A stretch of DNA of 64,000 bases, taken from contig JAJEKV010000201.1 in the NCBI GenBank assembly GCA_021234155.1, positions 186,001-250,000 on the forward strand, written 5' to 3'. Below are positions 3,164 to 45,780 of the stretch, piece by piece. Within the stretch, counting starts at the first letter, position 1. Every line of letters begins with the position of its first letter. Under the pieces are notes generated by a model that saw nothing but the letters and a program-made list of their open reading frames with translations, made no database searches and had not been told where the DNA came from. The translations under genes were made by a program, and so were the position numbers. Source of the stretch: Isoetes taiwanensis. Lineage: Eukaryota; Streptophyta; Lycopodiopsida; Isoetales; Isoetaceae.

Positions 3164-6100
3164 GAAGTGGGATTTTTGCAATTTAATTGCATAAGGCTTG
3201 GCAGGGAAACACCAGACGTTCTACGCATTACAGATATGACTAGTGATGACGATAAGGCGAGACAGTTAGAGGCCATGAGCAAACTCAAGAAGTATGCTGA
3301 CAAGTATCCACTGGGCCTTAACTTCACGCATCCAGTCCATGTCGACAGGCTTTTCAGGTCCACGAAGGCTATGTTCGTCAGCAGAAGATACGATAAGCAG
3401 CACGCAATGGAAATAGTAAACAGCATGATCGAAAACCCAGGGCAGGTGCCAATGCCGACAGATGTGGTGCCTTTTGATATGAAGACAAAGAAAGTGTTGA
3501 TATGGAATAAGCTTGAAGATTTAATTGGCAACCTGGATATTCACTTCATGGTAATAGATGGCCAGCATTCAGAGGAGGCGCAGAAGGTTTTGATCAGTCA
3601 AGCACAAAAAACTGGAAACCAGTTATTCTATAGATTATACTCAGTCAGAAATTGCCGGTTCCTCAGTGGCTCAACAACAGCAGCAGAATTAGCCGAAATC
3701 AGCGCGCTACTCAATGACATGGGAAAGACATTCCTATACAAAAGGTATTTTATTTTCCCACACATAGCTAGTCTAGAACTTCCAAACCGCGCCAGGCGCG
3801 ATTTGTTGCTTTAATGTGTATGTCCTATAGCAATCCAAATCGCGCCAGGCGCGTTTTGTATTGTTATTGTTTTGACGGCCTGTCTATTTTATTTATCTAA
3901 CGGCCCATATTTTGCAGTCCGTATGTGGAGCAGTTGCGGCACGCTCGTAACCAATGGATCGAATATGGAAAACCAATGCCGACCAGACAAGGGCAATCTA
4001 AGAGTGCCGAATTCAAATTACTAGAAAGGACACTGTGCCAAACAGTGTAGTACCGTACTTCCCGTACCGTACGTGTACAGTACGTATGCAACGTATAGTA
4101 CGGGGTAACATACGATGGCCAGTTTAACGTACAAACGTACGTCAAAAGTTGTTTAAAGTACGCGTACGGTACGTACGGTACCATAAAATACGTATGGTAC
4201 GTACGGTACCGAAAAAAAAATTTATTTTTTTTTATTTTTTTTGAAAAATACTTGTACCGTACCTATAAAGTACGTACCGTACCGTACCTGTACCGTACCT
4301 ATAAAGTACGTACCGTACCGTACCTGTACCGTACTTATAAAGTACGTACCGTACGCGTACGTAAACAACAAACCAAATTTTTTTTTTCTTATTTGATGCA
4401 CAAAATGAATAAGTACGTACAGTACGTATGGGTACGGTACGTTAAGTATGGAAAACGTAACGTACGCGTACTTAACCTACACTGGTGCCAAACCATAATA
4501 CAGGACAAGAGTAAGGGCACCAGATCAAAGAAGAAAAAGGGGGATGCACAAGCTGGCTCAGAAGATCAAACGGTGCCAAAGGATGCCTGCAAGATTGTTT
4601 TTTCTTCTGACCAGGTATGGGAAAAGTGGAACGAATTTTGGGATGCCTATAAGGAAAAGAAGTTGCCAGATTCGTATGGCAGGTTTCCTCCGCAAGATAC
4701 GTCTATTTTTTATATAGGTATCACAGAGATGAGAAAGGCACAAGGATTGGATGATGCAGAATTAATCTCTGTCTTAGAGAGGTGCATCAGAAAGGAAGTT
4801 GTCTACAAGAAAACGTCTGCAGCAAAGCACTTGACATCTTTCGAAGATGCATGCGAATCGCTAAAAAATATGAAAGTCTTGAAAAAGGCTGTTAGCGAAG
4901 AACTACAAAGGCTTACATGAGACTTCATGTTATCAGAGATAGGCTTAATGCAAAAGTACAACGTATCTAATGATGACATTAAGAAATATGTGTTTTGGTC
5001 AAAAGATTTTGTGAAGCAGCAAAAGGCGAAGAATGTGGCAACTCTAAAGGGGATTCACACGAAAGTGGCGTCTGACCTAAAAAGAAAAGTTGCTTTGGTG
5101 AAACAGACGCCAGAAGAGGAGTCTCCTTTTTTCTATAAGGTGTCCATTGGTTATAAGTGTGCCATACCAGACGTGGGTGATGGGCCAACCGACATCACTC
5201 TATTTGTTCTTGATAGCCGTGGCACGAGATGGACACAAGATGATTACAGCACCTTCTTCAACACATGCAGTGGTTTTACGACTGAGATGCATTATACTAT
5301 CGTGACAGTTTGCCACTCCGACATGTCCTATGCATATGCACTATCTGCTGCAAATGATCTCGAATGCATTAAAGTGATGAAGCAAGCAGTAATGATAGAT
5401 GAAAACAAAGATAATGAGTTCAGTACCGAAAGTAAGATCTCACATGTGCTAGTCCTTATGATAGCCATTATGGATGATAAAGAATATGAAAGACTCAAGG
5501 GGAAACCAGAAGGTGAGAAGATTGCTTGGCAGTGCTATCGGCTAGATGAACCCCTAGTGAAGAATGTTTTTTATGTCGAATCCAATGCTGAAGACAAAGG
5601 GAAAGGGATTGCAGATGTGGATGTGGACCTTATAGAGGACGAAGAGGAAGAGGAAGAAGAAAACTGGGTCAACCCTGTCCTTAATTCACCAATCAAGTAT
5701 GAGCTCCTGATGGTGCACAAGGGGAGGCTGAATAAGTACGGGTTTTCTTTGGCCCTTTCGAGTTTTCTGATTGAAGCCTTCTGCCCTTTAGAGTCAACGT
5801 GTTGGGAGTTTCATGTTGGAGGTTATGTCAGTCGGGAAGCTCTGAAGCTAGCTAGGAAATGCCAAAGTGTGGTCTCTGATAGTCAAGCGAAGGACTTCCT
5901 TGATATTTTTTTCGAGAAAGTGCTCGAGGTGGCACCTAGGGGTCCGATAGGTAGTGCAAGAAATAAAGCTTCTACCTCTAAGGCCGAATTACCTCCAGAT
6001 CTGGCTAAAGAACGGGAGAACATGAGAAAGCAGATGGATCAGATAAAGATGAATTTCGACAACCAGCCGGCTAACTATGCGGCCGAGATCGTCCCTATAC

Positions 6101-6862
6101 TTCCAATCACATATGAAAATCCGACGGAAGGGAATGTAGAGAACGCAAACCAAAAAGACAAAATCCAAGATGATACAGTGGAATCGGAAAGCTCTAGTCA
6201 GGTTAGCATAAAGAGTAATGAAGTATCAACCATAGTTCAAACACTAAGTGATGTGGTTGACACTTCTGGCAGACCGAAGACAACCGAGAGTAAGCTCATC
6301 ATTGCAGAAGTTGAACAGGAACCAGAAAGGTATGTTCTTCAAACAGAAATGAAAATCGCGCCAGGCGCGATTTCAATTTTCTTTTTCCTTGTCTCACAAG
6401 TGTCTGCTTTCTTATTACAGACCTAAACCAGTTTCCTCCAAAATTCTGGTGTTCGATTTGAATGGAGTGCTCTGCAAAACGTTACCTAAAGCACAATTCG
6501 ACCTATCATGGTATGCACAGAAACCATTTGAGACACGTACGAAATGGGTATATCCGCGGCCGTATCTGAAGGAGATGTTAGACCAAGCTTTCACTTTATT
6601 TCGTTGTGCAATTTGGTCATCGATGGAGAATAGAAATATACAGGAAGTTTTGAGAGTAGTTCCTGAATTACATAGAGATTGGGCATCTGTTTGGAATCAG
6701 AGCAAATGTAAGTCATTTAAAAACCTGAACGATCCGTCAGGTAAAAATATATTTGTGAAATGCTTGAGCGACATGATGGATGACTTGGGCGTTCAAGAGA
6801 AGGAAGACATCATTATAGTTGATGATGATGCTTTGAAGTGTTGCTTCAATCACATTCACTAA
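3164..6862 (+). CDS. ParB/DGQHR-like + DNA-methylase-like + FCP1-like fusion protein, interrupted by stops
   Basis: Four exons joined by GT-AG introns with matching phases: 3164-3744, 3918-4044, 4504-6329 and 6421-6862, about 990 codons. Exon 1 has a ParB/DGQHR-like core, HFMVIDGQHSEEAQKVL (about 3541-3590), where the family has (V/I)DGQHRxEA. Exon 2 is basic. Exon 3 opens with SKGTRSKKKKG, a possible nuclear signal. It then has a region like N4/N6 DNA methylases: ITLFVLDSRGTRW stands where motif IV (DPPW/DPPY) is expected, and LIEAFCPLES plus WEFHVGGYVSREALKLARKC stands where motif I (VLDPFAGSGTT..A..LGR) is expected. Both catalytic motifs look decayed. An acidic run (EDEEEEEEE) lies between them. 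Exon 4 is FCP1/SCP1-like: VFDLNGVLC (second Asp lost), AIWSSMENRN, WNQSKCKSF, IIIVDDDALKC. In-frame stops at 4918-4920 (TGA) and 6860-6862 (TAA) interrupt regions that otherwise keep homology, so the copy is probably decaying or has sequence errors. The start is unknown; an ATG at 3236 is available. Bacterial and phage ParB-methylase fusions are known; the added FCP1 part is the novelty here. Confidence 0.6.
3785..3855. repeat. Two CGCGCCAGGCGCG hairpins in intron 1
   Basis: The perfect inverted repeat CGCGCC-A-GGCGCG occurs at about 3788-3800 and 3840-3853, both flanked by AA/TTT. A third copy with the longer palindrome AAATCGCGCCAGGCGCGATTT lies at about 6353-6373 in the 91-base intron 3. 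The function is unknown; the sites contrast sharply with their AT-rich surroundings. Confidence 0.75.
4045..4503. repeat. GTAC/CGTAC palindromic satellite forming intron 2
   Basis: The intron is dominated by TACGTAC, CCGTACC and CGTACGC words on both strands. It holds a 36-bp unit (core CCTATAAAGTACGTACC) repeated three times at about 4252-4350, with inverted GTACGGTAC blocks on either side. The GT at 4045 and the AG at 4502-4503 join exons 2 and 3 in phase 0. A near-duplicate of exon end 'cactgtgccaaac' (4031-4043) occurs just before the acceptor (about 4481-4494), as if the array had entered as an insertion that became spliced. Confidence 0.75.
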
Positions 6863-6982
6863 ATCCACCATCCTATCATCCCCGATATGGTTACCACGGA
6901 TGATTTTCTGCTAAGCTTCATTGGTGTCATGCACCGGGGAAAATGGTACAAGAGATACAAACACTATACCCCAAGAACTTGA
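6863..6982 (+). pseudogene. FCP1-like C-terminal tail beyond the TAA stop
   Basis: Reading straight on in the same frame after the TAA at 6860-6862 gives IHHPIIPDMVTTDDFLLSFI and then a short basic tail ending at TGA 6980-6982. FCP1/SCP1 domains normally end with a Pro/His-rich loop, a 'DD..L' helix and a final leucine-rich helix. Homology therefore appears to extend past the stop, which supports a nonsense change or sequence error rather than a natural C-terminus. Confidence 0.5.
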
Positions 6983-7178
6983 TCGGACAGAGGAAATTGA
7001 CAGGGACCTTGAGAAAATCGTTCTAGAAAGGGAACTCTTTTGATATATATGTATATCGGAAATACACTTTCCATAAATGTTTTGAATATGCAATATACTT
7101 TACACGAAAGGTTTTGAATATCCTATATTATAATGTTATGCGGTGTTGAATCACGCCCTAAATCGGGCTATGATTGAC

Positions 7179-7689
7179 TTACCGGATCGGACAATCCGAC
7201 CTCAAAAACCTTTCTTCCTTATCTGAGGGCAAAGCCCTTTCTTCCTTATTGAGGGCAAAGCCGCCACGCCATGGCATGGCGAAACAGCAATCAATCGGAT
7301 CCTTCTTAGTCTTCGATCCATAGTTATGGCATCGGCAATCGCCTTTGGAGGAGTGGAGCATATATTCGACTAAACCTCTGTCTCTTTCACCGGATCTGAA
7401 GTGTCGCCCTTTCTCAAGTAAGCTAAGCTTTATCTTTTTTTTTTTCATTTGTTTTCTATTCCATCTAATATCTTCTTATGCGTAAAAACTTCGAAGTTGT
7501 TGCTTGCATCCAAGAAACTCGAAGTTTACGAAGATGAGTGGCCCGCAAAAGAACCGAGATGGCCCGTATGACCTTTACCAAAAATATGACGGTCCCGTAG
7601 TCATGGGTCGATACTGGAAATAGGGCTCTCCCCGATAGTTTGGATCTAGAGGCTATGGATCTAAAAAGCAAATCTGGATGCTAGAGTGC
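7179..7689. other. Helitron interior, no gene recognised
   Basis: Contains a short near-repeat 'cttccttat..gagggcaaagc' at about 7203-7260 and no coding similarity that could be named on either strand. Confidence 0.3.
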
Positions 7690-10600
7690 CGATTTTCTAA
7701 AGCCACGATTTGGTTAGGGCCGCATTCGATTGTGGGTGCGTTTAGACATGAGATATATGGGGAAAAGATTATAATAGAACGCTGCATTGCAGAGTCTGGA
7801 AATCTCTTTTGCATGAGCGACTGGCAAGGTTTGTTACTGCTCTCTCTCCGTTCAGAACCTTTAGAGCTTGTAGAAAGAAAATGACAGTTAAGTGTAGACA
7901 TTTGTTGAATATGAATTGAGCAACGATGTATCTGCACCGAACTTAGACTCTTAGCAGATTTTTCAAAACTCATTCCATCGTGAGCATTTTTGTACTTATT
8001 GCAAAATCCGAATTGGAGAAGAAACTCATTAAAAAGAAAAGACCTTAAAGAGTTAATGGTTCATTTTGATGTAAGAGGCGTTTTAACTCTTTGGCAATTT
8101 ACAGTGTTTTCATCATCTGACATACTTTAGCTCATTTTGTAGATAGATGTGCAAAACCCTTGCGTTATTATGTCTCAGGACAAGAGTCCAAGCTTTTAAC
8201 ACAAAGCTCGATAAGGAAAAGTTCGAGGTAGTACTGCATTTAGGAAATATTTAGAATGTGTGTTTTATAACTTTATTTTCATTTCTTATGTGTTAACATC
8301 CAGCGTTGGGGCAAAGGGGTGGTACATTGCAGTCATTGTAACACAAACTTCCCTCTTCCATCTCTAACATGATCTATGTTGCTTGCAGTTCTTTTATACG
8401 GCAACCTTATTGCCACAAGAAAACAACCTCCGTTGTATTCTATCTTATGGTAAAGTTAAGAAACAACTGCAAAGAAAGAGATTTACCATGGACCAGGTCG
8501 CTGCAAAAATAAATGTGCGCTGTGGAATACTCATCTGCATTTCAATATTATTGTAATTGCCTGCTACTTAGAGAAGTTATCTTTTCAGATTATAAAAGGA
8601 GCAATTCAGGATATAGAAACAAAGTTTAAACGGAATGCTGAGTATATTCATCGACATCTTGCATGGAAGTATGCTAGTTTATACAGAATTTTGTATCATT
8701 GACATGTGCTAAGCATTGTTAAATTTTTTTTTTTTTTTTTTTGAGGGCAAGATATTTTTATTTTTATTAATAATATGTAAGTAAATACATTTATTCATGG
8801 CTCTATAATAGCCAGATAGCCTAACCATGTCTGCACAAGTACTAAAACCACCCAGGTATGGAGGTAGAAAACAACACCACTTATAGGAGATCATCGAAAG
8901 GAAAAGAACCCCATGATGCATGTAGAAGATGCCACTAGAAACACCACCCGAAAATACTGATAAACAAAGGTAGAGGTGAAGGAATGTCTTCCCGCGCGTT
9001 AACTTGGCCCCAAGCTGCACATCTGCAAAAAGGTACTACAAGGAGACTCCGTCCTCTTTTCCAAGAGATAAGTGCCTCGCTATCTTCTCAAGATGCCAAT
9101 GCCTTCTAGAGGCCTCCCCAATGGGTGGTCTACTACTTCATCATCTACTTTGTCACCAGCTTGGGCATCATCAACATTGTACTCAACCAACCAGCAAGCT
9201 GATAAGCAATAGTAAATACATTTGGTCCTCCCGATCCAAATGCCTCCTAGATCTTCGCCTTAATAGAGCCCCCTTTCATAATATTGTCTCCAACATCCAG
9301 ACCTTCCTTCCAGCTGGGATGGAAGAGGGCCAACATGAAAAAATTGAACCCCTTCCAAGACGCACATATTAAAGCATTCAGAATTTGCTAAACCTGAAAA
9401 TGAGCAAAAGCAATGCAGTCACACTCCCCCAACACCTTCCAAGACATCACCAACACTCAGCTAAAGCAGCCCATTTCTTATGGTCATTTGCACACCTTGA
9501 GCATCCACCGAAAAATTTCATACAAAGGAGCATTACAAGAATCAGGATACTAGATATAACACAAGTCTGCTCAACATCAGAAAATCATTGCAAAATATTA
9601 GTGCTTAAGATGCCGGCTGAATAAAACTTGAGCACCAATCTTGCAATGGCCAACCTGCAGTCGATAAGAAGTGTGGCATACCCCAAGTATTGGCCAGTGC
9701 CTCAGCAGGCAAATGATAGAGGGACCTCACTGTTCAAGTTCATTGTCTGCTCCAACTGATCCCAATGCCTTAAAATATCCGCTTAGAAGGATGGATTTTT
9801 CTTCCATGTTAATGATCTGAAGAACATTCAACCTGGTTATTATGGCTTGAACACCTCCCCAACATAGGAACCGAGCCCAGGAGTATCACAGAGCCCCATA
9901 CTGCAGTGAGTGCAGTAGATTTCTTTTACTGCAATGAGTGCAGCAGCCACCTAGCATAGCCACACTGAGTGCAGCCTTTCTATTCTGACCCGAAATCTGA
10001 CGAAATAAACTGGCCAAGAAACCCACAAAAGAGAAGGAAAGATCATACCATAAAACCCCTTAACTGAATCTTCTTCAGCAGCACCAACAAACAAGAACAA
10101 CCTTGTTGATGCATCATGGCTTCTGTATAAGCTGATTTAGACGCAGAAGAAAGGGCAAGAAAGTTTCCTGACCTCAAGGTCTTGTGCTGGAGAGTATCTT
10201 CGAATGTTAAGGCGAACACCAAAGAAACCTCTGCTACAAAACTTGAAGCTGCGTCCACCTTCTCAAAATCTGCTAAGAAATCACCGAATGCATAAGCCAG
10301 TAACCAGATTCTCCACTGGCTACTCGTCCAGCGGCAGACGTGCAAGAAAAATAGAAGCACGAGGTCGGGCGGCCGCCTGCCGCCGCCCTAGCCGCTGCTA
10401 AACCCTAAACTCATTTTTTCCATCCTTATGACGATTGTTGCCACATTGTTAAAATTTGGTAACAGATTTAATGATTAGCATTGTTAAAAATTGGTAACAG
10501 ATTCAATAACCAGTTAGCTAAAAAGGGTTTCATGGGCCACCTTCAGGTTGACTATGTTTCAAGAGAACTCTCATTACAAGTGAGTATTACATCCCTCTTT

Positions 10601-10992
10601 TTGGGTCAAGTGATTTCTTTTTATCTTTCGTTGCTGTCTGATGCAGGTGCAAATGCCTCAAGAAAATTCAAGGATGTCTGTGAATGATACACGTGCCTTA
10701 TCCGGTATCCCCAAGCGTAACTGTCAATTTTAACTTTACCATTCCAAATAATGCTCACACTATTTAACTTTACAGGTGGGAATCGGTCATTCTCAACTCT
10801 AAGTTTTGCACTAGCATTGCATTCAATGATTGAGTCACCTTTTCGTGCAATGGACGAGTTTGATGTTTTTATGGTATGATATTGAAAGATCAGCAATTAT
10901 GTGGTACCTCTTTTGTTATCTACTATCAACATTGTGTTTTGTAGGATGCAATAAGCCGGAAAATTTGCCTGGAAATGGTTGTAGAGGGCTAA
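7690..10992 (+). pseudogene. SMC6: Rearranged SMC6 gene fragment captured in a Helitron
   Basis: SMC6 is the ATPase of the SMC5/6 DNA-repair complex. Exon-like pieces match it in order. 7690-7828: AFRHEIYGEKIIIERCI. 8143-8227: IDVQNPCVIMSQDKS, then a stop and frameshift. 8389-8508: FFYTATLLPQ. 8589-8668: KFKRNAEYIHRHLAWK. 10501-10579: FNNQLAKKGFMGHLQVDY. 10647-10704: VQMPQENSRMSVNDTRALSG. 10776-10873: the ABC signature [16 protein letters not shown] and Walker [13 protein letters not shown]. 10945-10992: DAISRKICLEMVVEG, then a stop. Splice donors and acceptors with compatible phases survive at most junctions. The Walker A N-terminus, nearly all of the coiled coil and hinge, and the final residues are missing. 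The signature motif has N for E. An internal deletion joins N-terminal and C-terminal parts. This is a dead fragment, typical of Helitron gene capture. Confidence 0.85.
8712..10488 (-). mobile_element. Poly(A) retroposon in an SMC6 intron, with 12-bp target duplication
   Basis: The direct repeat AGCATTGTTAAA at 8712-8723 and 10477-10488 flanks the insert. A run of about 18 T follows the left copy, i.e. a poly(A) tail on the minus strand, and the opposite end is GC-rich (GGCGGC blocks near 10365-10395). This is the pattern of a non-LTR retrotransposon or SINE-like element inserted on the minus strand. The 3' sequence before the tail (TTATTAATAAAA) resembles that of the LINE at 17149. No reverse transcriptase was recognised inside. 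A second near-copy of the acceptor region lies at 10444-10468, so the right border is slightly complex. Confidence 0.7.
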
Positions 10993-11948
10993 TTGTGCCA
11001 TACATGGCTCAAACAATGTTTTTCAGCCACCCATATGGTGCATTCCATCATAAGGGCAAGCACTTCTGCCATGTCAAAGCTCTGCCATATAATTGATACT
11101 TGGGCAATGTTTTGCCATAATCTGCCAGATTCAGCTTGAAAATTTGTCATATTTTGCCAGAATAAGCTTGAAATATTTGCAAACGTTATAACTGTAGCGG
11201 CACATCTTCAAGATAAACAAAAGGCACACGAAACCTCGGACTTGGCGCCAAATGCCAAAAACAACTAGGCAAAGAAATGAGGAAAGAAATATGTTTCAGC
11301 CAACAAACATAGATGAAGGGGAGCAAAATAGTCTCGGAGAATCGATCGAGCAAAAGTCAAATGAAATACTTAAACTAAATAGGCGATTCAAAGGCGTGTT
11401 CAGTACCCGGCTTATTGTATTGCAATCTATCTCATGTACTTGAGATTTGCACCATTATTTTTAGGAATATTGTAGAAGTTAACAAATAGCCAACTTATTG
11501 TATTGCAACCTATCCCATGTACTTGAGATTTGCACCATTATTGTTAGCAACATTCTCTACAATTTTAACATTACCATCGACCAGAATATTACTTGGTGCA
11601 AAAGCTCCTTTACTTTTTCAAACATTAATAGCAACCAGTGCAGAAACAAAAAAGATAATGTTGTCATGCAAAAAAATGTCTTAGGCTTTCTTCACTTTTA
11701 ATTAGCAAACATATCATTCATAGCCCTAGCTCTTATACTGTACTATGCCTCAGCTCTGCAATGTGTACTTTTGTAGATATGAACAACATAAATTCAAATA
11801 TGGAAACAACCTCAACAATTATTCCTACATGCTCCCAAGATGATCCAAGGGCCCAGAAGTTTCTCTATGCTCCCAAGATGATCCAAGGGCCCAGAAGTTT
11901 CTTTATGCAAACGTACAATTTTTCAGCATTTACAGATTTTCAAATTAT
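10993..11948. other. Helitron 3' part, no gene recognised
   Basis: Holds a duplicated block 'cttattgtattgcaa.ctatc.catgtacttgag' at about 11411-11444 and 11493-11530, and a 33-bp tandem duplication 'ctcccaagatgatccaagggcccagaagtttc' at 11831-11895. No coding similarity was seen. Confidence 0.5.
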
Positions 11949-12715
11949 GCCCAGCAACGCTGGGCACCATTACTAGTATATTATGTTCTTGTAGCAGCAT
12001 TATTGGTACTATGTACATATTGTATTATTAGATTACTAGAAAAAGTGCCCAGCGTTGCTGGGCTTTTCGTCAGGCATGAGTTTAGAAAACTAATACAGAT
12101 GGTGGATTGAAGTTGAGACATTTAGTTTTTGGTTTGCATTGAATGAGTGAACGTCAGTGATGGAATCGTGAGAGAACTTGTGCATGTGTTGCCAATATTG
12201 GTGCTATATGACGTGGAAGATATGTTGCATTGCATTGTGTAAACCACCATTATGTCAAAATTCTTGGTTATTATTTACCCTATTATTTATTGTTCTTATG
12301 TTTGTTCAAAATGCATGTAAACCTATAGTGGTACCATATTACATTGCAAATATGCTTCACTGCGTTGTTTAAACCCCCATGACATATTACTTGTGAGGAT
12401 AGCATGGAGATCTCTCGTCAATACTATGATTTAAACAACAAAATCAATCTTGTTAAGATAAGGGGCCTTAAACCAAGCGTATACACCACAAAAAAATTAT
12501 GTGCCTCGCAGAAGCTCCATCTCGGACTTCCTTGACAAGATTTTAAAATATTTCTATTTTTTATTCTAGATAAATACAGTATACAACTTCCCAGAGATCA
12601 GATCCGTTGAAGTACCTATTTAAACCTATAGAAGGATCAATCTGGAAGGAAAGAAAACTGAAATACTTAACTCGCATGCTTCAGAATCAAGCTACCGGAG
12701 ATGGCGTAGTTCAGA

Positions 12716-12887
12716 AGCTCTTGAAGGGATGGTGTCTGCCAATGATGTTGCCAAGATTCAGAGCCACAACACTCTCATTCTGATGGCCGCCACAAGTTAC
12801 TCCAGTCCAGTTGCACAAAGGAATATTTGTCTTCCAGTCATAAAGGGAATTAAAAGGATCCTCAAGAATGGCATTCTTCAATTGTAG
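12716..12887 (-). pseudogene. LRR receptor-like protein N-terminal fragment
   Basis: The minus strand reads LKNAILEDPFNSLYDWKTN, then PLCNWTGVTCGG, then VVALNLGNIIG. This is the N-terminal cap (LRRNT_2) and first leucine-rich repeat of plant receptor-like kinases and proteins, whose hallmark is '(F/L)K..I..DP...L..W......C.W.GV.C'. The frame stops soon after, and no further LRRs or kinase follow. There is no signal peptide exon in view. It lies inside the minus-strand Helitron, same strand, so it is best read as captured cargo. Confidence 0.75.
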
Positions 12888-13379
12888 TGATATAGATGAA
12901 TCTGAAGCAACTTTAGCACTACGAATTTGAAAAAAAAAATGCAGTGTATAGCAATAGTGACTGTGAACAAACAGAAGCAGGTCTCATAGATAAACGCATT
13001 CCTTACTTTCTAGGTACTGAAAATAGAGTTAATAGAACATGAAAGTAGTTAAATAGAATGACTGAAAACAACTGGTTCAAATATGAACTCAGAATCCCGT
13101 AAGAAGAATTACTTATATTAAACCTGCATGTTATATATTCCTTACTCTCCAAGTACTAACCACCTTGAATAAAAAGTTTGAAATGGCTTCTCATCTGTCA
13201 GCTTCTCATGCATCCAATGAGTTGAGATTTCAGAAGCAGATTTATTTTGTTCAGTTGAAAATATATTTCAATCATCTAATACGTGAAAAATAAAGGACAT
13301 ACATAATAGCAAGACAATATATCAAGGAAGCAAGCAACGACCAGAATCTCATCAATAAAGTGGGGATCTATTTCTGTGA

Positions 13380-13690
13380 AGCATCAACACAAGCTGTCTA
13401 TAAGATAGTCAAATTATTGTCATACTAATAGAAGTCTTCTCCGTTATAAAAGATATGGACAAGCTCTCAATAAGATATCTTAAGCTAATAGCCATCAAAG
13501 TCTTCTCCATTATGCAAAATATGGAAAAGCTTTCAATAAGATGTCTTCAATTAGTATACTAATACCCTTATCCATTATGCAAAATATGGACAAGCTCTCA
13601 ATAAAATGTCTTGAATTACTGCCATACTAATGGCTAATAGTCTTCACTTCTGCAAAATATAGGACAACTTTGTCCATTATAAAATGCTGA
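13380..13690. repeat. Degenerate tandem repeat, about 65-bp unit
   Basis: The block 'aaaatatggacaagctctcaataagatgtctt' recurs with variation near 13453, 13519 and 13583, with a partial fourth copy upstream near 13390 and a decayed one near 13655. It lies inside the Helitron and is non-coding. Confidence 0.7.
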
Positions 13691-14376
13691 TTAATTTCAG
13701 TCAGAAACAACTCTAGCTCCAAGTTGTTAATAATTTACAATGCCCACCCTGCAATGGCATTGTTAAATATGGTTGTACTTCAGAGATAATAATACCACCA
13801 AAGATAGATACTTACTATAAACTGTTTTGAATAAATGGCCCAGCCATAGAAAATTTTCTAATCATCTGCATGTCATTCTTTAAAGATATACATTAGCAGT
13901 AAAGCGCAATGTATTCCTGCATAACTGTTGGTGCATCCCAAAAGCCAGCTTAAGAACTCCAGGACCTCCATATGAGGGCAGACTTAAGCATATGATGTTC
14001 AACTAAGTTGTAACATATTCAAAACTTTCAAAAGCCCAAGAACTTTTTTATTTTGTACAATAGGGAATCAACTCAACCTGCTGCCGCATACTCAATAGAA
14101 AATCATATGCGGCTTTCTTTAGTCGTCAAGACTTTCCAGCATGTCAAGAAGTAACATTTATGTATGAGGGCCATTTCAGAGGCGTATGAAATATCTATGC
14201 ATTGCAACTTTCCCACATGTCAAGAGGTAACATGTATGGTAGTATTACAAAACTTATTTCAAAGGTGTATAAAAAATCCAGAGGACCTTTGGCATCGATC
14301 AGAAATAAACTTTCTTCGGAGAAGTTATTCTGAGGTATATTTATTCCACTTGCTTTGATGTTATAAGCACGTTCAC

Positions 14377-14476
14377 CTTTGTAAAAAGGTGCCTGCAGAG
14401 GAACCTAGCCATGTCTTTGAGTGGAGCAAGTCCTAGGTAATTCACATTCTTACTCTTGTCAGCAGAGGCAAGGTAT
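14377..14476 (-). pseudogene. Captured exon of unidentified gene
   Basis: The minus strand shows an acceptor (tttgcag) at about 14477-14483, a 100-base open exon beginning YLASADKSKNVNYLGLAPLK and ending CRHLFTK, then a GTGAAC donor at 14376. Another exon-like piece, YLDIRKKQYDQKMYVDFTVE with an upstream AG, lies at about 14838-14900. I do not recognise the protein family. Both sit inside the minus-strand Helitron, so captured gene pieces are likely. Confidence 0.4.
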
Positions 14477-15079
14477 CTGCAAAACACATGACGAGCATAC
14501 AGCAACTGAGCAAACAAGGATATGGTCAAAGATATAATTCCCTTACAGGAGCAAATTTTTACAGAGGTTTTATTGGTGATGAATCCTTCACAAAAACGCA
14601 CATGTCAACAATATGCCACAGCTTTGAACAAACTCAGGACTTTATATAGAAGAAAACAAAGTACTGAGCAGTGCTATTAGAAACTTGCATATGCAAAACG
14701 TTGCAACGTTTTTAATCTAAATGGCTCCTATCAATGTAATAGATGGAGCTCAAAGCTCCACTCTAATAAGGCAGATCATTTGGCCATACAGTGTTCCCAA
14801 AAACATTGCAATATTCAAGTAAAAGTTATAAGGTTCTCTACCGTAAAATCCACGTACATTTTTTGATCATATTGTTTTTTTCTAATGTCCAGATACTGCA
14901 CGAAGTTAAATATTGTTAGAAAAGCTGGCATGCTAAGCAGCTATGAAACATCACAGCAATGAAGTAACTACTGTACATGACATGTATATTTCGGACAAGA
15001 CAATTTCATGGTGCATGATAAAAATTATTGATTGCCAGAACTAACAAAATAGAAGGATATAAAAATTCAATAAGAAAAT

Positions 15080-15245
15080 GAAGTACGCACAGACAAAGCT
15101 ATGTGTTCCGCATCACATCCTGACACCAATGTTGCAGCTATTGATATTTGCAGGCCCTTCTTTAGGAGGTGACATGGTTTTACATCATGATCAAGGTGAG
15201 AAGGCAATTGCAGTGCATCATTCTTTAGAGAACTGTTAGTAAAGC
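15080..15245 (-). pseudogene. Exon-like frame of unidentified gene
   Basis: The minus strand is open through LLKKGLQISIAATLVSGCDA with an upstream stretch DALQLPSHLDHDVKPCH. It precedes the exon-like pieces at 14838-14900 and 14377-14476 in transcript order, so all three may come from one captured gene. No family is recognised. Confidence 0.3.
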
Positions 15246-16160
15246 TGGACTCCTCTGCTTCTTTGTTTGATCATACTTTGTAACAACCAGTGAAAAAATC
15301 CATCTTGACATCTCACGTTGCTCGGCAGCCTTGTCTGCCACTAATATAGATGTGCATGTCCTTGCTCAAACTATGCACATGTCACATGTTGTCATCTCAG
15401 AATGTTAAGGTTGCATCCCTTGTCAGAAGCCGATGGTGGATTGCCTCCAATATCTGCCGAAGATGAGGAAATGATGGAGCTATAAAATAATGCTGGAGTA
15501 GACAAAAATATTATGCTCCTTCCACTAAGCAAACCCTAACTTAGGATTCTATTTTCTAAAACCGATTCAAAGAAGAGATGCACTGTGAGATCTGCCCATG
15601 AAATATGGACTCATGAATTCACTTACCTTCTGAGAGAGACTTTAGGCTTTTGCATTTGCACAATCGACAAGCAATTTTCAGCACTTCTGCTTCTTTGGCT
15701 ACATGAGAAAGCTCATCTTGTAGAACGGGCTCCTCTTCATCAAATCATTTTGGAGTTTGTGGATGTGGCAAATTAATCGAAACAGCTTCAAATTCACCGC
15801 AGAAAGATAGATTGTGTGCAACGAACAGGGAAGAAGGAATAAGGGACCGTGCCGCCCAAACAAACCGTTGCCTGCAATTAGACGCCAAGCGTCATTTTCT
15901 GTTGCCGCCCTTGCACCAGATGTCTCTAAAAATCTCTGTCATTTTAACCTAATTTGCTTCGGAGCCATGAAATGGAAACTGGCTGGAGAAGCAATCGCGG
16001 ACAAGGAGAACATGGAGCCCAGCCGGAATGGTGCAAAGCTACCACGACTCCTCAATAACCGCAATCAAAACAATTTTGAAAGCATCTCGACCGTCGGTTT
16101 AATTTAACGGTCAAGATTGCGCACAGACTATCACAAAACTCCTTTATTATTATATATAGA

Positions 16161-17148
16161 TGTGTATGGTTTGCTATACTTGCAATAATTTGTATGTATA
16201 TACCGTCAATAATTCAGGTGTGTATAAATAGATATGCATGAAATTGCCAAACGATCGGCTTCGGCCTCCGCCTGCTTCTTGTTATTATGGCACATTCTAT
16301 TACCTGCAAGATGACCCATGAGGACCTCTGCAGGTGCCGCCAGCTAGAAATAGAACTTGAGGACTGGTTGAATCCCGTCCGCTTCTATGAATCCCGTCCG
16401 CTTCTATCCTGATCCCTTTGATGTTGTAATCCATCTTCAATGGAATCCAGAGCATGCTTTGTTCATGATGGAGAGGATCTCAGGAGCGCCTGTCGACGAT
16501 GAATCGGATTAGTTTTTTTAGTTTATATTCTATTATAATGCTATATTTATGCCAACGAAATCGCGCACGCCTGCGATTTGAACCCACCTAAAAATCTAAG
16601 TTTTGTAGCAACTTGCTTTGCCGTTATTTATTTGTAAAGCACTAAAATTTCAATCTATAGATTTCGTTGTCGTCTGTGATGGTACGAAATAATAAGCAAT
16701 TTCCTACTTTCTATATTGCCAACATTCTGTCATAATATGAGTGATTTGCATCGAATATTTGAATGCCTTTCCATTTCAACACAAAATGCATCTTCCTAGC
16801 CCGAAAATAAACTCAGTGCAAAAGTGTGGTTAATTCAATATAATGGTCAATAAAAGGCTTATACGGCGCGATTTTGGAATAGACATAATCCCAATTTAAT
16901 TGAATGATGGTTCAATGTGCATATGCTCTTTTTTGGAACTAGAGGCGAAAACAAAGAACGCAACGAGCCCAACGATAAAGGTCTGTCTCTTACTAAGGAT
17001 GATAATCTCTTACTAAGGATGATAATCTGGAATGAGTGTATGATAGAAAGTGTAGCAAACTTAAATTGTTGGATTTATTTTGTCAAACGTACACTAAATG
17101 CAAAATGATGTTCCATTTGAATTTAAAGTAATGTTTTTTATTTTGTCA
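16161..17148. other. Intergenic, no gene recognised
   Basis: AT-rich DNA between a Helitron and a LINE. It includes a 22-bp tandem duplication ('gtctcttactaaggatgataat' type) near 16984-17027 and a palindrome-like 'aaatcgcgcacgcctgcgattt' near 16559-16580. Nothing else is evident. Confidence 0.4.
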
Positions 17149-18542: not shown

Positions 18543-19700
18543 TTACGAACCATCGAGGAGATTTCCTGAACCTTGCTTTCTGGCGCCAAAATGATAGATG
18601 CCATATAAATATGCGTAGAGCATAAAACAGACTTCGCCACCGTGACCCTGCCAGCCATGGAAAGTTTCCCCCCTTCCACCAATTAAGGTGCCGACGCCGT
18701 CCCACCAGAATGTCCTCCCACACACGTGCCGCCGAAATGTCGATGCCAAACGGTATACCCAACAGCCTAGAGCATGTGCCCTGCGGCTGCGTTTGCTAAG
18801 GAAATTGGGACACGACCACGGGCATGGGGTCTGCTGTCGGCCATAATGCCGAGCACTCGTCCAATTAATGAGGCAGCCAGAAGCAAGGGAGGATGTGTCC
18901 AACAACTCCTTCGTGTTTAACAAATTCCTCTCATCGGCCTGTAGGAAGAGAAACGAGTCATCGACGTACTGACTTCCTATCTGCTGCGACCCGTCTGCCG
19001 TCCTCAACCCCTCCATAATACTCCCCTCCGCTGCGGAGGTCAACAACTGCGAGAGGGCCTCTGCAACGATGGTAAATAGCAAGGGCGCCAAAGGGCATCC
19101 TTGGCGAACTCCACGCCCCACACTAAAGATCGGCGATGACTCGCCATGACATAGAAGGGTGGCTCTGGCGGACGTCAAGAGCTTCAAAGTCACTGCCGTA
19201 AAGTTCTCACCACACCTAAAGGCTAGCATCATCTTTTCCAAAAACTCCCAACGAACACTATCATAGGCCTTCGCGAAGTCCAGCTTCAGGTACACAATCT
19301 GCTGACCTGTTCTGCGCGCCCAGTGAATGCCCTCAAATGCCCCTGCTACATTGTTAAGAATCTGCCTGCCCGGAATGAAGCCAGACTGCATGGGACTAAT
19401 AGCCTTCTTCAGGACAACTTGCAGTCTAAGCGAGAGTGCCTTCGCGATAATTTTGTACACTGCCGACAGAAGCGTGATGGGACGCCAATCAGAAATGACA
19501 GATGGCTCCTTCACCTTCGGTATTAACGAGATGCAGCAAGTATTGAGTCTATAGTCTAGCGTCTCTGCCTGAAGCAGATCTTGATAGGTCTGCAGCACTG
19601 AGTCCCCCACCCAGTCCCAATATTCTTGGAAGAACTCCACCAGAATGCCGTCCAGATCAGGGCACCTATGAGGGGCCAAGGCACGGCAAGCCTCCTCAAG
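18543..19700 (-). pseudogene. LINE reverse transcriptase core
   Basis: The longest surviving frame of the LINE. RT motifs appear in order: RCPDLDGI near 19635, SDWRPITLL near 19480, FIPGRQ near 19365, DFAKAYDSV near 19265, GVRQGCPLAP near 19110 and YVDD near 18960. After YVDD the frame drifts into non-homologous sequence, and the true continuation is in other frames (18334-18762, then 17935-18315). The catalytic residues look intact, but the protein is not. Confidence 0.85.
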
Positions 19701-19714
19701 CTCCTGCTTTGTAA

Positions 19715-19953
19715 CCCAGGGGTTGCACTTATACATAAGGGGGGGTATGTCATCTGCATTCGGAGGGTAGCAAAAAACCCCCCTTGTATACGCAATTTTA
19801 AAAGGCAATTTGACCCCTCTGTATATAGATATTGCTCCAAATTAGTGCCTAAAAACACCCCTAACCCCTAAGTATACGTACGCAAATGGTCCAAAAAACA
19901 CCCCTCTGTTGAACTCTCATGGGTTATACGCTGATCAAAGGTGAATCCCCCGG
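19715..19953. mobile_element. Mutator-like MITE, 239 bp, inside the LINE
   Basis: The insert is flanked by the 9-bp direct repeat GCTTTGTAA (19706-19714 and 19954-19962). Removing it restores the LINE reading '..RPLTK|QELEEACRAL..'. Its ends are imperfect inverted repeats (CCCAGGGGTTGCAC against CCGGGGGATTCAC read from the other side). A 9-bp target duplication with short inverted ends fits the Mutator-like superfamily. A decayed relative is at 1072-1320. Confidence 0.75.
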
Positions 19954-20270: not shown

Positions 20271-21304
20271 GCACCACATTGCGGCAGATGAATCCAAGAG
20301 GGCTGCTCCTGCAAGGGTGAAGGCGATTAATTTGATCATGATTAAGCTGCTTATTATTATTGGTGCAATTACTTCTATTTCATTCTTTCTTCCTTTGTTC
20401 GTTATGCATGATACAACAATAGACTCACATCTAAAATACAAATTTGTTGAGAAAAGAGAACATTTATTCATGAAGAGACAAAAATGATAAAAATTGAACG
20501 TAGAATTACCACAAAAAGGACTCGTGATTTGGACACAAATTTAACAATGGTCTCATTTGTGTTCATAAAATTGACATGTAGATGTCACAAAAAGACTCAA
20601 ATATTGACACAATTTTATTATTTAACTATTACGAAAAGGAAACTAATTTGTCATAACTGTATAATTAAAGATCACAATAATGTTCTTAAAATAAAATAGG
20701 CTCGTTATAAATTGCATAATAAAAAGATATACAACTGAAATAAGAGAGTTACGAATATGACCTAACAGATATCAATCAATGCAAGATAAAAATGCCAATA
20801 TGGCGTAACAATTTAGTGGTATAGTCAAGACGAATTTGCTATAAATATGACGCAGCTATTGACGAACTTAGATATAAGCTCTGGCAGAAATGTGCTATGC
20901 ATTTGCCACAAATGTAGTTATTGTATTAAGACTAATATGATAGAAAATAGGACACAAGTATTGAATAACTTGGATATAAGCTCGACACAAACATGACATG
21001 CAATTGTCACAAATTTAGTCATTGTGTCAAGAGTAATAGGACTGAAAATATGACGCAATTATTGAATAAACTTAGATATAACTCGTCGCAAACATGCTAT
21101 GCAATTGCCACAAATGTAATCATTATGTCATTTTTGCGTTATATAGCCATGATGCAATACTTGACACAAAAGTTGACGTCCATGCGACATCAAAGTATAG
21201 CACTTTTAGTGTCAATCTTGTGACATTTAGTAGGTCTTTGAGAACACACATAGCGTCACTTTGTTTGACGCTATACCTGACGAAAACACCCTATTATATT
21301 GTAG
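20271..21304. mobile_element. Right end of a CACTA-like transposon
   Basis: The right border reads 'ccctattatattgtagtg', the reverse complement of CACTACAATATAATAGGG, like the CACTA-superfamily terminus. A hairpin TAGCGTCA..TGACGCTA (about 21252-21274) and the 102-bp subterminal repeats lie inside. The border falls exactly at the start of Gypsy coding sequence (DGYLGYNQI), as if inserted into it. The left end and a transposase were not found, so the left limit is arbitrary. Confidence 0.45.
20871..21140. repeat. Tandem repeat, 102-bp unit, about 2.6 copies
   Basis: Units begin at 'gatata' at 20871, 20973 and 21075 and share 'caaacatg.tatgcaattgccacaaatgtagtcatt' and 'gacgcaa..attgaataa.ctta'. 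They lie just inside a CACTA-like end, where subterminal repeats are usual. Confidence 0.75.
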
Positions 21305-21305
21305 T

Positions 21306-22994
21306 GGGATGGTTACTTAGGATATAATCAGATCCAAATCTATCCACCACATCAAGCAATGATGGTTTTTCGAACACCTTTTGGCATCTATGCTTATAAG
21401 GTATTACCTTTTGTCCTCACAAATGCTCCAGCCACATTTCAGCGAGCTATGACATATGCTTTTCATGACATTTTAGACTTTTTGAGAGTCTTTATAGACG
21501 ACTTAATAGTATTTTCTAATCCAAGAAGGGATCATTTGGATCATCTCAGAAAAGTTCTTGAAAGATGCCGATTGTATGACATAAGATTGAATCCTGCTAA
21601 GTGTATTTTCTTCACTAGAGGAGAAAAACTATTGGGCATTATGTTTCAGAAAGTGGATTACAAGTGGAGAGGAAACCAATCAGCACGTAGCATTTCGGGA
21701 TGATGATGCCGTGTTACAAGGATTTATTGAGACTGTGGATCTTTGGTAGCTAATATCTATAGGTACCTACAAAATTAGACTTATTCTTTATCATTTTTCA
21801 AGCAACAAAAGCATGCTCTGAGAATACAAGCAGCTGGTTATGTGGTGCATGAGACTATTCTTTATAAGAGAACTATGGAAGGTCTCTTATTAAGGTGTTG
21901 CTGGTCAGCAAACTCATGATTTATTGCAGCAAGCACATGATTGTCAGGGGCATTTTGTTGCCAGAACAACAGCTAGGAAGATCCTCCATTGGGGATATTA
22001 TTGGCCAACTCTTTACAAGGATACTAGAGACTTTGTTTGCAAATGTGAGAAGTGTCAAAGGCATAAACAATTAACAGGCCATTATAATATGCCATTCCAT
22101 CCTATTTTGAGCATTGGTCCGTTTCATATGTGGGGATTGGATTACATTGTGTCTATCGATCCTCCATCTTCCAAAGGTCATAAGAATATCTTGGCAGCTA
22201 CATGTATGTTTACGAAGTGAAGCAATCCAAAGAAAGCATGCTACGAAAGTACCACAGTAAGCTTTCTTTATCACAATTTGATTTCTCTGTTTGGTGTTTC
22301 AACCACTTTTTTGTCGGATGGGGGAACTCATTTCATGGGAAAAGTAGTAGCTCAGTTAACAGAAAAGATTGGTGTTCAACATGTGCAAGCTTCTGCTTAT
22401 TATCCACGGGGAAATGGACAAGCTGAGTCTACTAACAAATGAAAGCTATCTACAGTGAAGGATAATCAAAGAAATTGGCATGAAGCTTTTACTGGTGCCT
22501 TATGGATTTCAGGTGTACTTACAAGTTGGCTATAGGATTTACACCATTTGAATTGGTTTATGGAGTGCAAGCGATAATGCCTATTCATTTGGACATTCCT
22601 TTGTGTTTATTTGTAGAGCTACCTTATTATGAGAATTTAGGAAGAGTTCCACCTCCAAATCAAGTGCATAATAGAATGGATGATTTGATGCAATTGCAAG
22701 AGATGAGACACGGCAGTAGCGTACTTCAATATGAGGCATGAACAAAAGTAAAGCTTATCAAAGATAAGTTACAGTGTTGTCAATCCATTTGAGGAAGGGT
22801 AATTGGTGTTGTGCAGGACCACTAAGAAGCATCTATCCAAATTTCAAAGCCCATGGGAAGGCCCATTTCTGATTGATAAAGAGATACCAGGTGGGGCTTT
22901 CTACTTGATGAATCCAGAAGAAGAATTGTTGCCTAATCCCAGAAATGGCAAGGATCTCAGGTCATATTTTGAAAGATTAGATAAGATGAGATAA
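21306..22994 (+). mobile_element. Ty3/gypsy retrotransposon remnant (RT and integrase)
   Basis: Reverse transcriptase (21306-21702): DGYLGYNQI, FRTPFGIYAYKVLPFVLTNA, PATFQRAM and FIDDLIVFS in the catalytic place, then NPAKCIFF. Integrase (21900-22480): the zinc finger with H..H and CEKCQRH, then the DDE core with GLDYI, LSDGGTHF and RGNGQAESTNK in different frames. A final part (22502-22994) has GFTPFELVYG and HLSKFQSPWEGPF, typical of the integrase C-terminus of Ty3/gypsy elements. RNase H is mostly missing between 21700 and 21900; several frameshifts and stops occur. No LTR, primer-binding site or gag was seen. The order RT before integrase separates it from Ty1/copia. Confidence 0.88.
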
Positions 22995-24734
22995 ATTTTT
23001 ACGTCCACGGGAACCCAATGGGTTATGGGACGGCACAAGCAAGGGCAACAACCCATCTAAAACCTGGGGACCAGGCCCCATCACCAAACAGAATAACCAA
23101 ATATTAAAAGACTATGAAGAAGAAGATAATGCTAATGCTAGTGGTAATTTTGTGCTTCTAAGAGAAGTGCTATTCTAAGGGATTCAGATTTGGCGTAGCT
23201 CTAATTACACAGAATTTTTGGAGAATTTTTGGGTTACAATAGGTTGTTTTTCTAAAAAATAGATGGTGATAGTTCAATAATACTTCATCTATCCAACATC
23301 AAAAGATGTGATTCGACGATACGAATCCAAAGAGCTATGGTGCAGGTCAAACAGAGTTCTGGAACTCAAGATATCAGCTTCCAAAGTTTGCCACAGTTAC
23401 AGAGGCTCAGTTTTGTCACTATCGTTTTGGATCAATTTGTTTTGTACTAGTTATTTAGATTTAAGGAGGGTAATTTTTTTTCTAAACGTACATGTAAATG
23501 TGTCAATTGGGGACATGTCCCAAGGACTATACTAGTATATTTTGGTGTGGGTTCTCTGCCACGGGGTGGCATATTTTCCCACTGTGGTCGCCACTGTTGG
23601 GGTGGTCACATTCACCACAGTTGGGGTGGTATAGGAGACCGTATACATGGTCGTATATGGCAGGTATATATACATATATGTACACACATGCATGCGTGCA
23701 GGATATATGCACGTATGCATTATGGTGTAGAGGATCTATTATCATCACTGTGTTATCTAAGCAGAGAGAGAAAACAGAAAGATGGTGTATTGGGAGAGAT
23801 TATTTTTGTTTGATCTAGCTATGGAGATTATGAAACTTTATGTTGTGCATTGCATAGATCTGGTAGCTTGAAGCTTGGATTATTGGTTTTTCATCCTTCT
23901 TGCAAGGTTAGAGTTTAGGCTCTAACACCTAGGCTAATATTGGATGTCCAAATTAACCACCCAATTATATCCGGATTAAGCACATCCTGGTTGATTTATA
24001 CATAGTGCTGATGTTCTCCCTTGGTAGTTTTGCCAACATTGCTGCTCATCCGAACTTGGAATTTCATCCACACTTCTTGTTGCAGAGTCACTAAAGGCAC
24101 AGATCAAGGGATTGAAAACTTAGCCATTTAATCTCTGTTTAAAATCATCTATCGTTTGCCTATTGTAGTGCCAGAAGGAGCACATCTAATATACAAATCT
24201 TGGGCTTGCTCGCTCCTCTTATGCACAACAAAAATGCTGAGTTTGGATACTTGAATTCCTCTAGACTCCCCTCTTCATAAAGCTTTTAAAGATTTCCCTT
24301 ATCAAGCTCCCTTTGATCCCATGGATCTATGCTGCAATCTTAGTGCAACATTGGATCTCCCTTAAGAGAAACTTAGATTTGTGAATGCAATACTCTGTCT
24401 AATACTCTAAATGACACTACCAGAAGAAATAAACTCTCTCTGATTTCTCAAAGGGTTCTCTCTTCAACTCAAGAACTGCACCAAAGCAATGGCACTCGCG
24501 ATTCTTCCAAATCGTGGGCCTTTTCAAGACCCTCCGAGTTTCTCTTATATAGGCATTTAAAGCTAGGGCTACCAGATCAATACCACATGTTGAAGAACTC
24601 ACACACTGCCAATTCCAAAACATCCATGATCAGAGAAAGGTTTTCTCTTGTTAGGCCTAAGCAAATCGGCTTTGGCCACATGGATCTCAATTCCAAAGCT
24701 CTAAAAAAATATATTATTTTAACATTGTAATTAA
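22995..24734. other. Intergenic or retroelement 3' flank, no gene recognised
   Basis: Contains a polypurine-like 'gggaacccaatgggttatggga' just after the integrase end. At 23655-23720 there is an alternating purine-pyrimidine stretch (TATATATACATATATG, CATGCATGCGTGC). No coding similarity could be named. Confidence 0.4.
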
Positions 24735-26475: not shown

Positions 26476-27511
26476 TTGCCATAGCCGATGTCATAGTTTC
26501 TGGGCCATTTCTGTTTTTTCTTTGCTTGAAGTTGGACGAAGTGGTGAGAAGATTTAGGAAGATTCTTTGCTTGCATGTTGCTTTCTTGCTACAATATGTG
26601 TGCGGGAGCATGTAGCACGACTTGGAAGACGGTCAGGATGCCTATTTTGCAAGAAATTCTTGCATGCAGGTTCTCTAGTCGAAGTTTTCTGGTTCCTAAT
26701 TTGTTTCAGGTTCTGATACTTGCTCTAGGACGAGTTTCAGAGTTCTATTTTAGGTTCTTGTTTGATCCAGGTGGTTTGCTTCAGGATTGTGTCAAAAAGG
26801 CAAGTATCATTCTTGTTTCTTGTTACTAATCTGCAATGTTTCTTGTAGGTTTGTGCTATTCATGTCTAAGGAAATGATCAGCGAAATGATAAAGGGTTTT
26901 GGCCCGAAAAATTGTGGAAGTTCTACTGGTTTTGGCCCTGCTACTACTCCTAAGTTCTTGTGTTTTAATGTTTTTTATTCTAATGTTTTTTTGAGGAATT
27001 GATACTTTTAGTATCAGACTTTGACTTGTAATCTGGACACTCAGATTGAATCAGATATGAAGTTATTTTGAGTCCTAAATTTGTTGTATAACTGAATTGC
27101 AAGTAAATTTGTTGTATAACTGAATTGCAAGTAGACATAGAATTGCAATTAACTTGAAGACATTTCTGAAAAAGAAAAACATGGTAGAATGTGGGATGAA
27201 AGTGACAGAATGAAGCCTAACCAAACTTTACGTTGCTACAAATACCTTCGAATGCGACATAATTAACACCACAATTCTCTTGGAGTGCGGAAATTTGCAA
27301 GGAGGTTGAGAAAAGTAGGACAGCAAGTGAGGCAAGGCCAAAATTGTGAGGGTGCCAAATAGGCCAAAATTGGAGGTTCCCAAATAGGCCAAGATTGGGA
27401 GGGTGCCAAATTGCTGACTCAAACTTTTGTACAGGATGAACATTTCATTTTAAAAGGAACATTTCATCTTAAAAGAAGCATTGCAGAATTTAGGATTGCT
27501 CTGTTTTAGAA

Positions 27512-40914: not shown

Positions 40915-41019
40915 CTAGAAATGGAGCCAGGCCTTTGTGGGCATAGCTAGGAACTATAAATGACTCACTGGAGTAAATTGTTAGATGAATTCACGTTCTT
41001 AAAATCACACAATTACATT

Positions 41020-42130: not shown

Positions 42131-42139
42131 GTCCTCACC

Positions 42140-45262: not shown

Positions 45263-45706
45263 ACCCATCCACAAGAAGGCATGTATATCACCAAATAATC
45301 CTATCTTTTGAATCTGTCGATTATTAGTTTCAAGCTCTATATCAGATCACGAGGGCGTTTTTTACTGCTTGCAAGATTTCCCTTGAGAATATATAGGTAG
45401 GTTTAAAAGGCAATCCTTAACCTTTTGTATCCATTCTCTACAAATTTTGATAAGTTCTTTTCTTCTTACGCTAGAATTCTAATCCCATCAGATCAGCACA
45501 ATGCTCCTCATTAATACGATCTGGATTACAAGGCATGTTTCCTTTTTCATGCCCATCTCCTAATACAACAAACAATTCATCTTACACGATTCACGCTTCA
45601 CCCGGCACCCAAACTTTCCACATCTAATATTTTTTACAATTTAAAAAGTAGAGTTAGAATTATGAACCTTCATTTGTCGAATAATAAATTCAAATTAATG
45701 CCGATG

Positions 45707-45780
45707 GTCCTATTGGGGCTCGAACCCGCGACTTTTCGGTTCATAAGACCGATGCTCTATCCAAGCCGAGCTACAAGATC
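45707..45780 (-). tRNA. tRNA-like unit (UAU anticodon loop), copy 1
   Basis: Minus-strand cloverleaf-like sequence with T-arm GGGTTCGAGCCCC (B box) and anticodon stem-loop TCGGT-CTTATGA-ACCGA, giving UAU in the anticodon place. The D-arm reads CTCGGCTTGG here but CTCAGTTGG in the duplicate, so this copy probably has a base-calling error. Two further degenerate units follow at 45824-45895 and 45944-45987 (3' half only). Confidence 0.5.

Follow-up and report, generated by a model that had tools for sequence, protein, structure and literature searches.

Locus structure and transposon context

We analysed a 64,000-nucleotide stretch of the Isoetes taiwanensis genome (contig JAJEKV010000201.1, positions 186,001 to 250,000; hereafter the window), near the start of which a preliminary description had placed an intron-bearing plant gene joining ParB-like, methylase-like and FCP1-like parts. 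The sequence at window positions 3200-7043 (+) is a decayed copy of a repeated gene, here called gene B, and forms part of the right portion of a 12.3-kb DNA transposon with terminal inverted repeats (TIRs). Frame reading places a ParB/DGQHR-like core, with VIDGQHS at 3551-3571, in an exon at 3200..3744 (+), which is followed by a GT...AG intron (3745..3917, +; by eye) that carries two palindromes (~3784-3804 and ~3837-3857). The long exon (3918..6329, +), read from a 15-copy alignment, encodes a helical segment (by eye), a methylase-like segment with LDSRG at 5209-5223 and EFHVGG at 5806-5823, and an acidic linker. A further GT/AG intron (6330..6420, +; by eye) carries the palindrome AAATCGCGCCAGGCGCGATTT at 6353-6373, and the last exon (6421..7043, +), matched by the Pfam NIF profile, encodes an FCP1/SCP-like HAD domain with DLNGV at 6455-6469 in place of DxDxT. 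All four motifs were read in open exons separated by GT/AG introns, in agreement with the preliminary description.

The window copy is unable to encode the full protein. It is 5′-truncated at ~3200, where the upstream exons of other copies are missing, and a 442-bp non-autonomous insert (4043..4484, no strand assigned) interrupts its long exon. The insert has ends CAGTGTAG/CTACACTG and is flanked by the 8-bp target duplication GTGCCAAA (4035-4042 and 4485-4492); aligned gene-B copies run from ~4043 to ~4479 without it. From its ends and the 8-bp duplication, we take this insert to be hAT-like. The long exon also contains an in-frame stop at 4918-4920, and the NIF exon contains both an in-frame stop at 6860-6862 and a frameshift near 6935. 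The stop codon proper to the family is therefore the one at 7041-7043, and 6982 marks a stop in the shifted frame. Comparison by blastn with seven other copies assigned 3200..16912 (+) to the right part of the gene-B-family element, including two insertions: alignments start at 3200 or later, end at 7108-7121 and restart at 16144/16145, so the copy is interrupted by ~9 kb. We assign this interval (7122..16144, no strand assigned) to a secondary insertion or rearrangement in the 3′ part of the element; no clean duplication was seen when its edges were inspected. The right TIR, AACCATCATTCAATTAAATTGGGATTATGTCT, lies at 16881..16912 (-). A second gene-B copy lies on the same contig ~16 kb before the window start (G000:C1021:169713-170594).

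A search of the whole genome (1,658,258,908 bases, or 1.66 Gb, in 1110 contigs) with the long exon returned 92 matches. Because 86 places were scored, as the best of 4403 first-look candidates, gene B is a dispersed repeat and not a single-copy gene, and its repeated occurrence is far beyond chance. Extended copies share upstream sequence that includes an opposite-strand reading frame matching DUF7869 (5.3e-36), and a 32-bp TIR is identical at both ends of the element. A 30-mer from this TIR (≤2 mismatches) has 3163 matches in the genome, compared with 0 for the reversed control, and inspection by eye of the first 100 places revealed many +/- pairs ~12.1-14 kb apart. The 4-bp flanks were identical at 10/10 TIR pairs read, compared with 2/90 when left and right ends were mispaired, and an eleventh element likewise had a matching 4-bp duplication. 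At least 12 of the best 62 transposase places, scored from 16170 candidates, have one of the 86 scored gene-B places no more than ~14 kb away, with divergent orientation in 12/12 (by eye). What the locus holds is thus an accessory gene of a transposon, in an inactivated copy and dispersed along with TIRs, 4-bp duplications and a DUF7869 transposase; it is not a host gene, and its earlier description as a plant gene acquired horizontally is not supported.

Two other origins were rejected. The number of scored dispersed places rules out a single host gene, and the element context rules out transfer of a chromosomal ParB-methylase into the host genome. An endogenous viral origin was also considered: viral contigs searched with the long exon contained no relative of it, and phage searches with the ParB-like region and long exon of another copy (L024) found no relative at E up to 10.

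Domains, motifs and selection in gene B

Across the family, the gene-B protein starts with a ParB/DGQHR-like region, followed by a helical segment (by eye) and a methylase-like segment without either catalytic motif; an acidic linker then leads to the NIF domain. The previously proposed order of ParB, methylase and FCP1 parts was largely upheld by profile searches, with different support for each part: the NIF match is above the Pfam cut-off of 21.8 bits in the window copy (46.9 bits, 3.2e-12) and in L024 (63.6 bits), the ParB-like part has a DndB match below cut-off, and the methylase assignment depends on a sister family described in the next section, as Pfam found no methylase match in the middle region of the window copy. 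The DndB match was absent from two other gene-B copies scanned. When the DndB profile was run against the whole genome, 16 places were reported, all below cut-off (E 0.24-0.93); the 13 fetched were gene-B paralogues in 13/13 cases, and a gene-B match follows each of the remaining three at a distance of 1.0-1.2 kb, so that all 16 belong to this gene family. PHROG returned families of unknown function only (ParB-like exon, E 3.5e-4; middle region, E 0.0043), and PDB searches gave no match for query segment A1 and chance-level matches for A2 and A3. In NCBIfam, the NIF exon matched two HAD models below cut-off, with chance matches elsewhere.

As the preliminary description had noted, the methylase-like and NIF-like parts are without standard catalytic motifs. 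Gene B has LDSR and HVGGY instead of the [DNS]PP[YF] and FxGxG motifs of beta-class N4/N6 methylases, and DLNGV instead of the DxDxT of FCP1 and SCP, with the first Asp retained. Of 18 rows from two subfamilies, 16 have an exact LDSR, 16 an exact HVGGY and 17 an exact DLNGV, and the IIVDDD motif of the NIF domain is retained in most covered copies. A third subfamily, with 46-50% identity to the query over the aligned parts, has IDGQHS and DLNGV in 4/4 rows each, HVGGY in 3/4 and LDSRG in 2/4. A more distant family, K (contig C1027), matches gene B collinearly (4e-18, 0.007 and 1e-7, with ~23% identity in the two strong parts) and has the same domain order, with the motifs VEVNCGGN and DMNGV; D[LM]NGV is found in gene B and in the K-type copies L080, L082 and L083. 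The genome-wide NIF search scored the best 150 of 3263 candidates, with 10 places fetched, and all five host-like NIF domains read, presumably of host origin, have DxDxT (DLDHT in three, DMDET and DLDQT). The C-terminus of gene B falls with the NIF/SCP/UBLCP1-type HAD phosphatases (PF03031) by Pfam score and differs from them in having DLNGV for DxDxT. Loss of phosphatase activity is likely, and short of proven because the first Asp is retained. In two further loci, L078 (C1037:3992000-3996800) and L079 (C1051:7004740-7009300), NIF frames have DLNGV for DxDxT, and a weak RING-like match, below cut-off, lies in a frame upstream of each.

Selection was assessed by comparing majority codons between eight subfamily-1 and ten subfamily-2 copies, leaving out copy D, with 22 stops, and copy E, with 25; 958/1222 codons were comparable, and the remaining 264 had no majority in one group. 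Between subfamilies, the nonsynonymous rate (dN) was 0.137 and the synonymous rate (dS) 1.43, giving a dN/dS of 0.095, with dS saturated in two of six segments (methylase-like and N-terminal). By segment, the ratio was 0.18 for NIF and 0.52 for the acidic linker, and changes confined to single copies, relative to the group majority, gave ratios of 0.37 and 0.34. These codon comparisons show that purifying selection acted on the gene-B protein as the subfamilies diverged. The motifs had earlier been described as decayed; because LDSR, HVGGY and DLNGV are common to subfamilies whose dN/dS is this low, they are not decaying.

Sister family M and family-specific palindromes

A search with the N6_N4_Mtase profile led to a large repeated family, here called M, for which the best 150 of 1444 candidates were scored, with the listed matches above cut-off, and 5 places were fetched. 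In the five M loci read (L053-L057, on G000 contigs C1051, C976, C1039, C1043 and C1066), D[LI]PY is present in 4/5 copies and DAFSGSGTT in 5/5, and GGNHS is found in the ParB-like region of 4/4 covered copies. Pfam recognized the methylase in both M loci scanned (2e-17 and 4e-18). The nearest solved structures to copy L054 in the PDB are CcrM and MboIIA, and the same copy is 28-33% identical to phage methylases; a search of genome contigs with the M methylase exon matched one archaeal locus. Family M is also associated with a transposon of its own: the locus in C1051 has a diverged relative of the transposase in divergent orientation (37% and 23% identity), and the element there has matched ends (4 mismatches in 25) that form its own TIR, with an ATAT duplication on both sides. 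Taken by its motifs, family M is a candidate source of N6-methyladenine (6mA) or N4-methylcytosine (4mC) in a land plant. Next to one M gene (L057 with L073, C1066, 4659-12061) lies a related element with the changed TIR AACCATCATTCATTTAAATTGGATTTATGTC, in which the transposase is ~50% identical and, of gene B, the NIF exon alone was detected.

The methylase reading of gene B is supported because this sister family has intact motifs and the same domain order. The direct profile alignment is weak: a combined B and K profile aligned to M in three collinear segments (P 0.053, 0.024 and 0.047), corresponding to the region preceding the methylase, LDSRG against DLPYG, and HVGGY against FSGSG. In global alignment, the middle of gene B matched M with a z of 4.0, equalled by 3/1000 shuffles. 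We take gene B as probably descended from a common ancestor with the M ParB-methylase, having lost catalysis and carrying a fused NIF domain, although the sequence comparisons by themselves fall short of proof.

The introns of both families carry palindromes. The B-type palindrome, AAATCGCGCCWGGCGCGATTT, occurs at 613 exact places in the genome, compared with 0 for the control, and 33/34 of its listed sites on TIR-covered contigs have a listed TIR at most 13 kb away, and for the last the distance is within 15 kb (by eye). Across ten gene-B loci, 65 sites were found (≤3 mismatches), with 0 in exons, which account for 35,371 of the 53,784 bases; shuffles gave 0. The M-type palindrome, AAAGTGTATTCCGGAATACACTTT, has 1474 places in the genome, compared with 0, and recurs in L053 at 42-bp steps. 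The ten B loci have 0 M-type sites and the five M loci 0 B-type sites: the palindromes are family-specific, with B and M introns carrying different ones. In the copies read, they lie mainly in introns and the middle of the element, with some ~0.3 kb from an end, and the B-type sequence contains four CpG and one CCWGG. In the third subfamily, an inverted-repeat scan of three loci found none at the scan threshold; L075 and L076, from the same subfamily, have changes in both palindrome arms with symmetry mostly retained.

Possible roles of gene B, known systems and neighbouring features

The explanation we favour, which we judge to have about an even chance of being correct, is that this selected accessory gene, of which the locus carries an inactivated copy, has as its product a dead M paralogue that would work as a non-enzymatic, sequence-specific protein of the element. 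Gene B would have descended from an M-type protein with ParB and N6/N4-methylase parts, and its ParB/methylase fold may bind the ~21-bp palindromes in the introns and flanks of the element. Through the NIF module, in which the first Asp is retained, the complex could then dock on another phospho-protein or on components of transcription, such that the element's own DNA would be regulated, protected or marked, and not methylated. A broader scheme, possible but on the doubtful side, would make this a modular, element-encoded system of DNA recognition in a lycophyte transposon superfamily. Every family would have a protein derived from a ParB-methylase and a matching intron palindrome array of its own, M marking itself with 6mA or 4mC in a vascular plant and B and K using the same fold as dead, site-specific binders; B and K would have lost catalysis and gained a NIF pseudo-phosphatase, coupling element DNA to transcription.

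Several observations weigh against the binding explanation. Recognition of parS by a ParB N-domain is not normally known to occur unless a helix-turn-helix accompanies it. The DndB/DGQHR match in the window copy has an E of 0.0049, below cut-off, and IDGQHS is exact in 9/16 covered rows and altered or out of frame in 7/16. Structure prediction by AlphaFold, which had been proposed as a check, did not yield a fold: two window segments modelled singly had mean predicted local distance difference test (pLDDT) values of 42 and 37. Single matches between the B and K profile and M were not significant (HHalign probabilities 1-2%; best P 0.024), and that alignment includes one out-of-place segment (P 0.04). 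In local alignment to M, the middle of gene B was equalled by 74/1000 shuffles, and its N-terminal part was equalled by 24/1000 in global and 112/1000 in local alignment. Conservation of the palindromes exceeded that of the remaining intron sequence slightly and without significance (0.923 vs 0.896, 505/5000 shuffles), as it did in a second comparison (0.968 vs 0.935, 365/5000 shuffles), and one gene-B element (copy A) contains four M-type palindromes, located in sequence that copy B of the element lacks.

Other roles would account for parts of the same evidence. Elements of the Spm/En and Mutator types have a second protein, and gene B might similarly be a second transposition protein that binds element sites so as to assemble or regulate the transposase complex, with the methylase fold serving as a scaffold and the palindromes as transposition enhancers. 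The divergent orientation with the transposase in 12/12 pairs, the purifying selection on gene B and the element-specific palindromes all agree with such a role; against it, the palindromes are mainly intronic or in the middle, only some being ~0.3 kb from an end, and copies D and E, with paired TIRs and duplications, have a heavily broken gene B, so that any need for gene B can be met in trans. We consider this role somewhat unlikely. Chances are slimmer, and clearly poor, for an anti-silencing or anti-competitor protein that sits on element DNA and blocks host CG/CHG methylation or poisons M through inactive heterodimers. Such a function would suit the presence in one genome of both motif-bearing and motif-lacking paralogues, the CpG and CCWGG content of the B palindrome, and the existence elsewhere of active and inactive adenine-methylase partners, as given in the available part of PMC12695648; the palindromes of B nevertheless differ from those of M, and none of the ten B and five M loci compared has both types, which gives no sign of common targets.

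Two further possibilities concern the evidence itself. The palindromes could be hitchhiking intron hairpin repeats unrelated to the protein, with gene B acting elsewhere, for example through NIF on the carboxy-terminal domain of RNA polymerase II, and their failure to stand out in conservation from the surrounding intron is what such repeats would predict. Yet they recur many times per copy, in two families with different letters, and the arm changes in L075 and L076 keep most of the symmetry, leaving this account unlikely in our view. That the middle region of gene B is not a methylase relative at all, and resembles one by chance, is distinctly improbable: it has no Pfam or phage match, its PDB and PHROG matches are at chance level (PHROG no better than the value given above) and its alignment to M is weak, but the three collinear segments, the ParB-like flank and the element layout are all in common with M.

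The closest published counterpart to the favoured system is in algae. The available part of PMC12477816 describes Sola1-1_Ec32 of Ectocarpus, a 21.5-kb Sola-1 element with an accessory gene for a ParB-like and N4/N6 methyltransferase protein opposite the transposase, and refers to relatives in green and red algae (Iyer 2011, Petroll 2025). As far as that part of the article goes, this accessory protein is a close fit to family M, and gene B resembles it in layout; the article part makes no mention of NIF, catalytic-motif loss or palindrome arrays, and the host is a brown alga. By this analogy, family M is of a known kind, the algal ParB-methylase transposon genes. Sola elements have, in the available part of PMC10741241, 4-bp duplications, TIRs of 11-1124 bp, DDD transposases and sizes of 2-9 kb, with some >15 kb; the 4-bp duplication, 32-bp TIR and 12.3-kb length of the gene-B element are all within these reported features, whereas its transposase was assigned by a Pfam DUF7869 match and not by Sola likeness. 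Family M also matches the beta-class N6-adenine methylases CcrM, MboIIA and RsrI, whose DPPY and FxGxG motifs gene B lacks. The METTL3-METTL14 and AMT1-partner pairs, from the same part of PMC12695648, combine active and inactive methylase paralogues as M and B would; they are host genes of the MT-A70 class, unlike M and B, and a partnership between M and B is hypothetical. The preliminary description knew of no plant system with this architecture, which is half right: algal Sola-1 accessory proteins of the ParB-methylase type are already in print, and among the top matches in the open-access literature, no match was recognised for gene B, with its dead methylase and NIF fusion, or for the palindromes.

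Our results would extend the algal ParB-methylase transposon accessory genes to a vascular plant, and add relatives that are without catalytic motifs and fused to a NIF domain. The two family-specific palindromes offer concrete candidate binding sites, and with them two questions become testable: do proteins of this kind mark or guard the DNA of the transposon that encodes them, and does any DNA transposon of a land plant lay down N6-methyladenine or N4-methylcytosine? The results also carry a warning for annotation, as gene models of the type ParB plus methylase plus FCP1 in this genome are transposon genes.

Elsewhere in the window, a 432-aa open reverse-transcriptase-like frame at 18543-19841 (-), with YVDDSFLF read by eye, appears to be a remnant resembling a long interspersed nuclear element, and a retroelement remnant with an integrase-like reading (by eye) lies at ~21300-23000. 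A 316-aa open frame at 27454-28404 (+) contains HHALGDG and resembles, by eye, an acyltransferase of the wax-ester synthase/DGAT type. Long pyrimidine-rich tracts with low-complexity open frames occupy 39000-42300, 46570-49430 and 60130-62140 on the plus strand, of which the first two look like mutual copies. Three tRNA matches exceed the Rfam gathering score, at 45705-45780, 52624-52697 and 63438-63511, all on the minus strand.

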